Source: Gammaproteobacteria bacterium
Lineage (GTDB): Bacteria; Pseudomonadota; Gammaproteobacteria; GCA-001735895
Direction of reading: 5' to 3'
DNA length: 64,000 nucleotides
Assembly (NCBI GenBank): GCA_029862005.1
Contig: JAOTYD010000010.1
Span: 1-64,000 of the forward strand
Within the stretch, counting starts at the first letter, position 1, and every line of letters starts with the position of its first letter. The notes beneath the pieces are model-generated. The model did no database searches. It worked only from the letters and a program-made list of their open reading frames with translations, and was not told where the DNA came from. Shown in pieces: positions 1 to 21,287 of this stretch. Position numbers and translations under genes: made by a program.

Positions 1-2
1 CT

Positions 3-584
3 TACCGGATTGAACAAAAGCATAGATTTCCCGAATACCGCTGTTTGCCGGTTTCAGCATTTGGCGATCCCAGTGCGCAGCTGCTGATAGTCGGTCTCGC
101 GCCGGGATTACACGGGGCTAACGCGACCGGGAGGCCTTTCACGGGTGATGCATCCGGTGATCTGCTGTTTGCAACCCTGCACAAGTTCGGCTTTGCCAGC
201 AGCCCGGTTTCGCACAGCTGCGACGACGAAATGCAGCTAATCGATTGTCGAATTACCAATGCGGTCAAATGTGTCCCACCCGGAAACCGGCCAAGCGGAA
301 CTGAGATTGATCGCTGCTCCGGTTATCTCCGATCTGAAATTTCGGCCCTGGCACCCGGTTCCATTTTACTGGCACTCGGCACGATTGCACACCGCGCATC
401 ACTGAAAGCACTGAAACTGACCCAGGCACGCTATCGGTTTTACCAGCAGGCCGAATATGATTTACCGGATGGCCTGAAGCTGATTGACTCGATTCATCCC
501 AGCAAATACAACCAGAATACCCGAAGGATCACTGCGCACATGTTTGAAGCGACCTTCGATCGAATCAGGCTGATACTGCAATGA
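3..584 (+). CDS. Family 5 (UDGb-type) uracil-DNA glycosylase, 5' end outside window
   Basis: The reading frame is open from base 3, so the true start lies upstream of the window; the first internal start-like codon (TTG at 45) falls inside the conserved fold. Visible motifs are GFGDP-like AFGDPSAQ, the glycosylase motif VGLAPGLHGANATGR (roughly residues 25-40 of the visible part), FTGDASGD and, near the C-terminus, a DSIHPSKYNQN segment matching the HPSxxN motif of uracil-DNA glycosylases. Family 5 enzymes remove uracil, and often hypoxanthine or other deaminated bases, from DNA and carry a 4Fe-4S cluster; cysteines such as those in VKCVPPGNRP and RCSGYL fit this. The stop overlaps the uvrC start by ATGA, so the two repair genes are probably translated together. 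Confidence 0.85.
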   Translation, partial: YRIEQKHRFPEYRCLPVSAFGDPSAQLLIVGLAPGLHGANATGRPFTGDASGDLLFATLHKFGFASSPVSHSCDDEMQLIDCRITNAVKCVPPGNRPSGTEIDRCSGYLRSEISALAPGSILLALGTIAHRASLKALKLTQARYRFYQQAEYDLPDGLKLIDSIHPSKYNQNTRRITAHMFEATFDRIRLILQ

Positions 585-3521: not shown

Positions 3522-5174
3522 TTGATAACATTGGTCAACAGTTTGTATTCGGGTTTTGTTGAATTCCCAAAATACTTGCGCGAGTTTCGTGCGAGTATCG
3601 TGGTATGTCTGTTTCTGGCGATAATGGGACATTCACGGGCACAAGATTGTAGTCCTCCTGACAAAAGACTAGAAGGATTGCCCATCCTCGAGGTCACAAT
3701 CGACAACAATGACATCTTCGATCTAGAGCAAGAAGATCAGAATTTATGGATTCACAAATGGGCTAACAAACTTCATATTAATACGCGGAAAAAAACAATC
3801 GAGGAACAGCTGTTGTTCGATCCTCAGGACGGCTATAACCAGCAACTGATAAATGAGACCGAGCGCCTGTTACGTAACCGGAATTATATCCACGACGCAG
3901 AAATCACCGCGGAGGAAGTTTGCGGAAAAGGTGTGAAACTGACGGTCGCAACCACTGACAACTGGACTTTAACGCCAAGCATCACAGTCAGTCGGTCTGG
4001 CGGGGAGACACGTACGGCTTTCGAAATCGAAGAGTCAAATCTGCTAGGACTGGGAACCGAAATTAAGATCCTGTCGGAGTCCGATGAGGAGAGGGACTCA
4101 GATGCTTTCGTCTACAGGGACATCAACTGGTTAGGGAATCTCAAGACCTTGAAACTGGAGCTTGCAGACAATAGCGATGGCCACGTTTACGAGGTGGACC
4201 TGGCGCGCCCATTTATAAAACAGGATTCAAAATACGCCTGGTCGATATGGCCCTCTTCGATTGAAAGAGAGAACCCGATTTACGAACAGGGTGACGAGGT
4301 GGCAAAAGTGGGGGAGATGAACGATTCGCTGCTGTTGAGTTATGGATGGTCTGACGGTCTGGTCGGTGATTCGGTTTCAAGGTATCGCCTGGGGTGGTTT
4401 GCCAACAGGCTGAGGTATAACACGGTTGATGATCCGAATATAGAACTACCGGAAGATGTAGACAAGAGTTATCCCTTTATCGAGTATGAGCATTTGAATG
4501 TTAAATATGTAGAGAGAATTAATTTCCGGGTGATGGGCATAACCGAGGATATCAAGTTGGGCACCAGTATGAGAACCAGAATCGGGTGGAAGGACGCGGC
4601 CTACGAATCGACACAGGAAGGTTATGTACTGGAGTTCGATTATAGTTTAGGCAACTTTATTTCAACGCATACCCTGGGACTTTTTGATCTGAGGTTGAGC
4701 CATGAATCTAACAAAACGATCGACGACACCGGCCGAATTGTGATGCGAGGGCAGCTATACAATTTTCGGGGTGTAAATGACAGTTACGTGTTTAGCAGCA
4801 GGCTGGAAGCGGCGCAAAATCCCGAACTATTTGAACGGATTGAGGTCGGTGGTGATTCCGGGTTGAAGGGATATCCGGTTCGGTTTCAGAATGGGGAGCG
4901 AGCATTCACGCTTTCCGCGGAACGGCGGGTATACTTCAACGTGTATCTCTGGCAACTGTTTAAATTTGGATTTGCAGTATTTGCGGAAGCCGGCTCGGCC
5001 TGGGACAACGGGGAAAATCCGATCTGGCTTAGTGATGTTGGAACCGGTCTACGCCTGGTATCGACCCGTCAATCCAACTCCAAGGTTCTGCATATCGATA
5101 TCGCCTTCCCGCTTAGTGAGAAAGAGGACATTGATGATTACCAGCTTTTCGTCAGGGCAAGAACCGAATTTTAG
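3522..5174 (+). CDS. Omp85/BamA-TamA superfamily outer-membrane beta-barrel protein
   Basis: The 550-residue protein has a hydrophobic signal-type segment near residues 26-38 ending before AQD, one POTRA-like module at about 50-135 (LPILEVTIDNNDIFDL onward), and a long beta-rich C-terminal part ending in Phe. The segment GDSGLKGYPV near residue 447 matches the (L)RGY-type loop motif of Omp85 barrels. Family members insert or transport proteins or lipids at the outer membrane; with a single POTRA this is not BamA itself and is shorter than TamA. The assigned start is a TTG and later TTG or GTG codons (for example near 3600) would fit the signal peptide better, so the N-terminus is uncertain. 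It stands alone between tRNA-Leu and a dioxygenase gene; no partner such as tamB is adjacent. Confidence 0.75.
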   Translation: MITLVNSLYSGFVEFPKYLREFRASIVVCLFLAIMGHSRAQDCSPPDKRLEGLPILEVTIDNNDIFDLEQEDQNLWIHKWANKLHINTRKKTIEEQLLFDPQDGYNQQLINETERLLRNRNYIHDAEITAEEVCGKGVKLTVATTDNWTLTPSITVSRSGGETRTAFEIEESNLLGLGTEIKILSESDEERDSDAFVYRDINWLGNLKTLKLELADNSDGHVYEVDLARPFIKQDSKYAWSIWPSSIERENPIYEQGDEVAKVGEMNDSLLLSYGWSDGLVGDSVSRYRLGWFANRLRYNTVDDPNIELPEDVDKSYPFIEYEHLNVKYVERINFRVMGITEDIKLGTSMRTRIGWKDAAYESTQEGYVLEFDYSLGNFISTHTLGLFDLRLSHESNKTIDDTGRIVMRGQLYNFRGVNDSYVFSSRLEAAQNPELFERIEVGGDSGLKGYPVRFQNGERAFTLSAERRVYFNVYLWQLFKFGFAVFAEAGSAWDNGENPIWLSDVGTGLRLVSTRQSNSKVLHIDIAFPLSEKEDIDDYQLFVRARTEF

Positions 5175-19480: not shown

Positions 19481-20701
19481 TCATTGATTCTGCACCATGA
19501 CGCGTGTCGCCAGAGTATGCGATATTTCAGCATGCGTCTTGGTAACCTCATCGCCCGGGGTAAAATAAATCAATTCGTCACACATGGCTTCAAACCGCTG
19601 CTGGCTGGGCCCCTTGACTGGTTGATCCGAGGTTACCCCGTAGATAAATTTGCCACGCGCCCGGGCAAAGCCGCATTCGAAACCCGTCCAGGCCTCGGCC
19701 TCGACACCCTCCAGGATCACAATCACGATATCCGCCCGGTCGAGTTCGTTCTCGTAACAGGCCTGTATTTCCCGCTGCGACATATTCTCGATATCAATAT
19801 CCAGATCGTGTTGGGGAATTAATACCTCCATGTAAGGATTATCCTCGGTGATCATATCGCGCAACTCGAGGTTCCATACCCGGGCCGCCTGTGAGCTGTT
19901 GTAGGCGGCAAGATACGCCCTGACGCCATGATGGATACCCATATTGACGTTGTGTGTAATCGATTCGGGCTCGAGATTGGTTTCCTTTTCTGCGGCAATC
20001 TGCAATGCATCCCTGAGCTCGATTTCACCGGTCATCAACGCGTGGCTGACGATTGCACCATTGATATTCGGCAGGTAGCGGTGTTTCGCGATATCGTCGA
20101 GTGTTCTAACGGTACCACTGGCATAAACCGGGATCGAAACATCGTGGCTGAGTTGTTCCGTCAATGCCAGAACCTCGTCAAACTCGGAATCTAGCCGCTC
20201 GGTGCCCTTGTGGATAACCCCGGCGATCCCGGTCATCTGCAGATCACGTATCAAATCCTGCGGTTGGAATGCAGTTTGCGTCTTCCAGCCGTCGATCATG
20301 ACGTAACCACCACGCGTGGCCAGGTGCACGATGATTCCACCTGGATGACGACTCGCTGCCTCAACTACCAGCGGGGAGTCGGTAATCGCGATGGTCCCGA
20401 GAACAACGCGAGCTGCGCCCGCTTCGAACCAATCATTGATCTGGGCCAGGGTTCTAATGCCGCCCGCGATCTGGATCGGAATGTCGGTTTCGTTCAGCAG
20501 CTCTTTGATCAGCTTGTAGTTGTTTTCAGGTTTCGATCTGGCGGCGTCGATATCGACTATTTGCAGCATCTGGGCGCCCTCAGCGACAAACTTCTGAACC
20601 GCCTGGCGCGGCGAGATATCGTGGACGATGTCGTCACCCTCGATAGCAGCACGGGTGATTACCTTTCCATCCTGAATCTGAATCTCTGGTATTATTATCA
20701 T
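19481..20701 (-). CDS. HisA-like TIM barrel fused to a nucleoside 2-deoxyribosyltransferase-like domain
   Basis: The 406-residue protein has two halves. Residues 1-240 are HisA/HisF-like: IIIPEIQIQDGKV start, phosphate-binding IAGGIRT (78-84), HLATRGGYVMIDGW (126-139) and a second phosphate loop ASGTVRT (194-200). The two catalytic aspartates of HisA are missing: the first is Q8 and the second is A128, so ProFAR isomerase activity is unlikely. Residues 258-400 resemble nucleoside 2-deoxyribosyltransferases: RAYLAAYNS, VLIPQHD, DRADIVIVILEG and TGFECGFARARGK with the candidate nucleophile E342. No other his gene is near. The protein may act on a ribosyl or phosphoribosyl compound (inference). 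The gene is divergent from a tyrosine phosphatase gene. Confidence 0.75.
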   Translation of the reverse strand: MIIIPEIQIQDGKVITRAAIEGDDIVHDISPRQAVQKFVAEGAQMLQIVDIDAARSKPENNYKLIKELLNETDIPIQIAGGIRTLAQINDWFEAGAARVVLGTIAITDSPLVVEAASRHPGGIIVHLATRGGYVMIDGWKTQTAFQPQDLIRDLQMTGIAGVIHKGTERLDSEFDEVLALTEQLSHDVSIPVYASGTVRTLDDIAKHRYLPNINGAIVSHALMTGEIELRDALQIAAEKETNLEPESITHNVNMGIHHGVRAYLAAYNSSQAARVWNLELRDMITEDNPYMEVLIPQHDLDIDIENMSQREIQACYENELDRADIVIVILEGVEAEAWTGFECGFARARGKFIYGVTSDQPVKGPSQQRFEAMCDELIYFTPGDEVTKTHAEISHTLATRVMVQNQ

Positions 20702-20798: not shown

Positions 20799-21287
20799 AT
20801 GTCGTTACGAAAACCGCTAAAAGTACTATTCGTTTGCATGGGCAATATCTGCCGTTCGCCAACCGCGCACGGCGTGTTCCAGTCCAGAGTCGATGCCGAG
20901 GGGCTGGGTAAATCGATCCTGGTGGATTCAGCTGGCACCCACAGTTATCACATCGGCAGTCCCCCGGACCTGCGGTCACAGGCAGTTGCGAAGGCGCGAG
21001 GCATAGACCTCGGTGGCCTCAGCGCTCGCCGATTCAGGGCAGAGGATTTTGTCGAGTTCGATTACCTGGTTGGCATGGACCATTCAAACCTGGCCGACAT
21101 GCTCGCGGTCAAACCCGAAACCGCAACCGCACAGGTGGACCTGATGCTGGCCTATTCGGATAAGTTTGAGCAACAGGAAATCCCCGATCCTTATTTCGGC
21201 AACGATGGGTTTGACCTGGTATTCGACATGATCGACGATGCTGCCTTTGGACTGCTGCGCGAAATTCGGTCGCAGCATAAATTCTAG
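20799..21287 (+). CDS. Low-molecular-weight protein-tyrosine phosphatase
   Basis: The 162-residue protein has the active-site loop VCMGNICRSP (nucleophile Cys near residue 13, Arg near 19) and the general-acid loop IPDPYFG (Asp near 130). These enzymes remove phosphate from tyrosine residues of regulatory or exopolysaccharide proteins; some relatives are arsenate reductases, but the DPYFG loop favours phosphatase. No kinase or polysaccharide gene is adjacent. Its stop overlaps the end of the convergent hflD by four bases. Confidence 0.93.
   Translation: MSLRKPLKVLFVCMGNICRSPTAHGVFQSRVDAEGLGKSILVDSAGTHSYHIGSPPDLRSQAVAKARGIDLGGLSARRFRAEDFVEFDYLVGMDHSNLADMLAVKPETATAQVDLMLAYSDKFEQQEIPDPYFGNDGFDLVFDMIDDAAFGLLREIRSQHKF

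Follow-up and report, generated by a model that had tools for sequence, protein, structure and literature searches.

What does a protein do that joins a HisA-like barrel to a domain resembling nucleoside 2-deoxyribosyltransferases (NDTs), when the barrel has lost the aspartates on which HisA catalysis depends? An earlier note had proposed such a fusion in the window analyzed here, a 64,000-nucleotide stretch of gammaproteobacterial DNA. The gene occupies the complement of 19481-20701, with its ATG at 20701 and its stop codon ending at 19481, and encodes 406 aa. Pfam places both halves above cut-off in a single protein, as the note had it: His_biosynth (PF00977) covers residues 3-227 with 147 bits (cut-off 23.6), and Nuc_deoxyrib_tr (PF05014) covers residues 263-361 with 38.8 bits (gathering cut-off 28.8). 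The NCBIfam HisA model TIGR00007 scores the window protein at 148 bits, under its cut-off of 228.95. The protein is laid out as follows.

19481..20701, minus strand: whole gene for the 406-aa fusion protein; same start Met in orthologues, dN/dS well below 1
20021..20695, minus strand: HisA-type (beta/alpha)8 barrel, residues 3-227; PF00977 at 147 bits, PriA/HisA fold match
19925..19996, minus strand: interdomain linker, residues 236-259; modeled with little confidence, pLDDT <50 at 241-257
19619..19915, minus strand: NDT-type domain, Pfam residues 263-361; PF05014 at 38.8 bits, model, fold matches

Structures predicted for the two halves agree with this division, the barrel matching PriA/HisA and the C-terminal model matching NDTs, DNPH1, and MilB. 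The full-length AlphaFold2 model has a mean pLDDT of 76.7 and a pTM of 0.56, at which the mutual placement of the two domains is unreliable and their geometry not interpretable; residues 256-406, modeled by themselves, reach a pLDDT of 88.8.

The homologue search recovered the same fusion in the window's genus and in two more gammaproteobacterial lineages. Of 31 genomes of the genus, 24 carry the fusion at full or nearly full length, with 60-91% identity. A scan of named genomes gave 28 fusion loci, that of the Olavius algarvensis Gamma 3 endosymbiont among them; four of these (L058, L060, and L062 with their near relative L059), here called group B, have ~50-52% full-length identity to the window protein. 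Among 369 class genomes scanned, the sole carrier outside the window's genus was G248, whose locus L067 constitutes group C, with ~42% full-length identity. Five genomes sampled from two other genera in the same family lacked the fusion, and the class and phylum samples yielded few relatives. Orthologues begin at the same Met as the window protein, and pairwise dN/dS in both halves is ~0.02-0.10 among members from the genus, against ~0.15-0.18 for group B. Because it recurs in 24/31 genus genomes and two other lineages with dN/dS <0.2, the fusion is an old, real gene under selection, and chance is excluded by its conservation across species at ~0.02-0.18 in both halves. That a mis-assembly joined two genes is a natural concern where the majority of genomes are metagenome assemblies, but independent assemblies refute it, with the fusion recurring in 24 genomes of one genus and in two other lineages, long contigs included; its probability is negligible.

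Several other observations concern the distribution of the gene. Three weak phylum matches (L069, L070, and L072) were rejected as members, their translations being other NDT-like proteins. In two genomes (G019, contig C61, L028; G023, contig C95, L025), the fusion gene is split into two overlapping frames, either by sequencing error or by recent decay, and in G027 the aldolase and DUF4156 neighbors are present, with no fusion match in the remainder of the 8 kb examined. A mobile, phage, or defense origin was also rejected: plasmid records all fall short of 80% coverage of the window protein, the matches listed pairing HisA with the barrel half only, and its matches in PHROGs and PADLOC are weak and partial. 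A promoter and terminator scan at the gene gave a signal not above shuffles.

The catalytic and phosphate-binding elements of the barrel were located by alignment of 11 HisA sequences with the fusion family, including 17 fusions of the window type, and by superposition of the model.

20678..20680, minus strand: Q8, at the place of a HisA catalytic Asp (D7 in S. enterica, D11 in M. tuberculosis PriA); superposition and alignment
20318..20320, minus strand: A128, where HisA has its second Asp (D127 as numbered in T. maritima); alignment
20450..20473, minus strand: N-half phosphate loop QIAGGIRT, residues 77-84, intact; G80, G81, and R83 as in HisA
20387..20398, minus strand: second element of the N-half phosphate site, GTIA, residues 102-105, intact; alignment
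20111..20119, minus strand: C-half phosphate loop SGT (SGG in HisA), residues 195-197, altered family-wide; alignment
20036..20059, minus strand: strand 8 element GAIVSHAL (GVIIGRAL in HisA), residues 215-222; alignment

Both catalytic aspartates had been described as lost, which holds for the window protein but not for the whole family. Position 8 is Asp in 11/11 HisA and Gln in 16/17 window-type fusions (His in the remaining one); position 128 is Asp in 11/11 HisA and Ala, Val, Thr, or Ser in the window type. The model barrel matches PRFAR-bound PriA (3zs4) with a Z of 32.2 and an rmsd of 1.5 over 227 residues. With residues 1..238 on M. tuberculosis PriA 4..245, Q8 falls on D11, and with 2..238 on S. 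enterica HisA 1..244, it falls on D7, a pairing taken from the starts of the superposed ranges and the ungapped sequence alignment; titles of structure entries carry the variants D11N, D7N, and D127V, consistent with these being catalytic positions. A shift of the aspartates, as opposed to their loss, was rejected, since the superposition shows no shift in strand 1 and the alignment agrees. Other HisA-invariant positions are also replaced (R16 by Thr; D170 by Leu, Met, or Phe), and groups A and B have no acid at positions 8, 128, or 170. The group C barrel, however, has E8, D128, and N16 where the window type has Q8, A128, and T16. Because this deepest relative has E8 and D128, the fusion appears to predate the loss of the aspartates; by parsimony, and with group C represented by a single sequence, D128 would have been present at the origin of the fusion and lost in the ancestor of groups A and B. 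The family has also fixed residues that are not fixed in HisA, namely T129, D137, Q142, T143, H164, and F/Y145.

Of the two phosphate-binding loops that the earlier note considered kept, the N-half site is (G80, G81, R83, G102, T103, and A105, as aligned with the 11 HisA), but the C-half site is not: G197 is replaced by Thr in the whole family, and G219 by Ser and R220 by His in the window type only.

In the phylogenetic tree, groups A, B, and C form one clade (100/100) on the HisA side, with L067 outermost, on a long branch outside HisA and apart from the methyltransferase fusion described below; midpoint rooting and long branches limit any deeper statement. The tree thus points to common descent of the fusion barrel and HisA. 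As had been noted, no histidine genes are nearby: contig C5 of the same genome carries the regular hisA and hisF as a pair, and because of this true pair the barrel has been free to diverge. We find it highly improbable that the barrel is still a HisA-type isomerase working with substitute residues, that is, a second HisA. The shared fold and the D128 and acid at position 8 of L067 speak for it, but the genome has a separate hisA, the TIGR00007 score is under cut-off (148 against 229 bits), the window type retains none of D8, D128, D170, R16, and G197, and the clade sits on its long 100/100 branch outside HisA; we rejected a role in histidine synthesis on these grounds.

The same genome encodes, on contig C25 (L003:691-2205, minus strand), a 504-aa fusion of a HisA-like barrel with a SAM methyltransferase, with relatives (L085, L086, L088, L089, and L090) in many genomes of the genus. 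A functional pairing of the two fusions was rejected, as there are genomes with just one of the two.

The residues of interest in the C-terminal domain are the following.

19913..19915, minus strand: Y263, equivalent to LlNDT Tyr7 and DNPH1 Tyr24, invariant; alignment
19811..19813, minus strand: Q297, part of the NDT motif IPQ, invariant; alignment
19730..19732, minus strand: D324, equivalent to LlNDT Asp72 and DNPH1 Asp80, invariant; alignment
19688..19690, minus strand: W338, an invariant Trp where NDTs have a glycine, four positions ahead of the nucleophile; alignment
19676..19678, minus strand: E342, candidate nucleophile, equivalent to LlNDT Glu98 and DNPH1 Glu104, invariant; alignment

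The C-terminal model has the flavodoxin-like fold of NDTs and matches 7m5h and 7o62 (Z 16.0 and 15.9), DNPH1 (14.6), and MilB (~12.7). LlNDT uses D92 for contact with the 5'-OH, D72 for the base, and Y7 for the nucleophile E98 (PMC11647913); the DNPH1 triad is Y24, D80, and E104, and the phosphate is held there by S98 and S128' (PMC10603095). Across three lineages, Y263, Q297, D324, and E342 are invariant in 21/21 aligned members, which bears out E342 as the candidate nucleophile. The NDT pattern, thought complete, is so in this core but not beyond it: position 336, the equivalent of LlNDT Asp92 and DNPH1 Ser98, varies among Glu, Asp, Thr, Lys, and Gln (mostly Glu, with Ser absent), and the motif glycine is Trp338. 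The alignment therefore suggests a retained core of the chemistry and a pocket with a new substrate end, because position 336 is unconserved and the glycine has become an invariant Trp. By analogy with DNPH1, where the water-activating E55 lies in a similar place, Q297 might favor transfer over hydrolysis. Another 402-aa two-domain protein with an NDT-type domain at its end was seen in the same class (L079:664-1872); its N-terminal half looks carbohydrate-kinase-like by eye.

In the window and most relatives, the fusion gene lies inside a syntenic block of housekeeping genes; in the window's genus it stands alone between DUF4156/fructose-bisphosphate aldolase genes and divergent low-molecular-weight phosphatase genes, and the upstream neighbors vary in several members. 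The window's phosphatase gene, at 20799-21287, is of the low-molecular-weight tyrosine type and lies ~97 bases from the fusion gene, and the divergent phosphatase gene is retained in 14 of the compared loci. In group B (L058, L060, and L062), 16-17 bases separate dctM of a complete DctP-DctQ-DctM TRAP operon from the start of the fusion gene. Downstream come genes for an LLM monooxygenase or nitroreductase and for a TPP-dependent enzyme, and upstream, in L060 and L062, are kynureninase-like and 3-hydroxyisobutyrate dehydrogenase-like genes. The salvage or repair role that had been suggested finds no support in either context: the gene is alone among housekeeping genes in the genus, and in the other lineage its place behind a TRAP operon hints, weakly, at use of an imported compound instead. 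In these three loci the operon appears to end with the fusion gene (L058 3660-8507, L060 3834-8507, and L062 3540-8507), the TRAP binding protein of L058 being encoded at 3660-4766. The large permease has 515-516 aa, more than the 405 positions of the DctM model, and two separate stretches of it match that model.

From these observations we infer the reaction, the substrate, and the role of the barrel. The reading we prefer, with a probability of about 0.4, is that of a fusion enzyme carrying out E342-dependent N-glycosidase or glycosyl transfer chemistry, the substrate probably being phosphorylated and the barrel, no longer an isomerase, serving for binding or specificity. The C-terminal NDT-fold domain would cleave an N-glycosidic bond or transfer a sugar by way of a glycosyl group bound covalently to E342; D324 would donate a proton to the leaving group and Y263 would position E342, like their counterparts in LlNDT and DNPH1. 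The barrel, a putative HisA descendant that would no longer isomerize ProFAR, retains one phosphate-binding half-site and the family residues T129, D137, Q142, T143, and H164, and would most likely bind a phosphorylated substrate, product, or regulator, thereby setting specificity or channeling a sugar phosphate. A phosphoribosyl or nucleotide substrate, as the earlier note envisaged, is plausible because one barrel phosphate site is intact and the C-terminal fold is common to NDT, DNPH1, and MilB. In favor of the preferred reading are the invariance of Y263/Q297/D324/E342, the NDT/DNPH1 and PriA superpositions, purifying selection on both halves, and the changes D8Q, R16T, D128A, and D170L while G80/G81/G102/T103/A105 are kept; against it, the pocket as aligned differs from a standard NDT or DNPH1 (336 unconserved, W338), and pathway neighbors are absent around the gene in the window's genus. 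Whether this amounts to a new bifunctional family, whose barrel lost its isomerase residues after the fusion and became a phosphate-sugar binding or channeling module for an N-glycosylase with a new substrate or reaction, is a more tentative matter, and we lean slightly against it.

The roles of the two halves could instead be reversed, with the C-terminal domain as a ligand sensor or regulator and the barrel performing new, non-HisA chemistry on a phosphorylated substrate with H164, D137, Q142, and T143. The residues fixed in the fusion family and not in HisA (T129, D137, Q142, T143, H164, and F/Y145) and the changed NDT substrate-contact positions would fit such chemistry, and as the outgroup L067 retains E8 and D128, barrel catalysis may have outlived the fusion event; we nevertheless judge this somewhat unlikely, given an NDT triad invariant in every lineage, beyond the needs of a mere binding domain, and groups A and B without acid at 8, 128, and 170. 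The TRAP context of L058, L060, and L062, 16-17 bases behind dctM, and the downstream LLM monooxygenase or nitroreductase and TPP-dependent enzyme of group B would suit a bifunctional enzyme that breaks down an imported compound, phosphorylated or glycosylated, its C-terminal domain freeing a sugar (phosphate) that the barrel processes. That enzyme is unlikely: TRAP substrates are organic acids as a rule, the neighbors point to carboxylate or amino-acid catabolism and not to nucleosides, and such a context is missing in the window's genus. Finally, a barrel without catalytic aspartates beside an NDT domain without conserved substrate contacts could be a structural or regulatory scaffold with both domains catalytically dead, which we consider quite unlikely for a protein with a Y/D/E triad invariant down to ~42% overall identity and dN/dS of 0.02-0.18, typical of enzymes.

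A literature search on the domain pairing, which took in passages of a review of his-gene fusions (PMC1963479), returned no published description. As far as these tools can tell the pairing is undescribed, and the statement that no described enzyme has it still stands, as no known family with an assigned function was found for the fusion. If the preferred reading is true, the family joins two well-studied enzyme folds in a way not reported before and documents how a HisA barrel gave up its catalysis step by step once fused, from E8/D128 to Q8/A128. It would also put forward a specific protein for an unknown nucleotide- or sugar-phosphate reaction of gammaproteobacteria, the Olavius algarvensis symbiont included, and a single, moderately sized protein would be enough to test it.

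Compared with known systems, the fusion shares with HisA/PriA (PF00977, TIGR00007) the (beta/alpha)8 barrel and the N-half phosphate site, at ~28-36% identity, but differs in Q8, A128, T16, L170, the altered C-half phosphate site, the extra C-terminal domain, and its location away from his genes. The L003 methyltransferase fusion is a parallel in that a HisA-derived barrel has been recruited beside a second catalytic domain; its partner is different, however, and it keeps D128 and D170, has His for D8, and forms its own clade. With NDTs (LlNDT, 7o62, and 7m5h; PF05014) the fusion has in common the fold (Z 16) and the Tyr-Gln-Asp-Glu core with the nucleophile Glu, at only 16-22% identity to the best structures, whereas its Asp92 equivalent is unconserved, Trp replaces the glycine of DxGxxxE, and a barrel stands in front. 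With DNPH1 (RCL) and the nucleotide N-glycosidases MilB/BcmB it shares the fold (Z 12.6-14.6) and the Tyr/Asp/Glu triad, but the phosphate-binding Ser98 position, six residues before the nucleophile, is variable and never Ser, and Q297, not an acid, probably occupies the place of the water-activating Glu.
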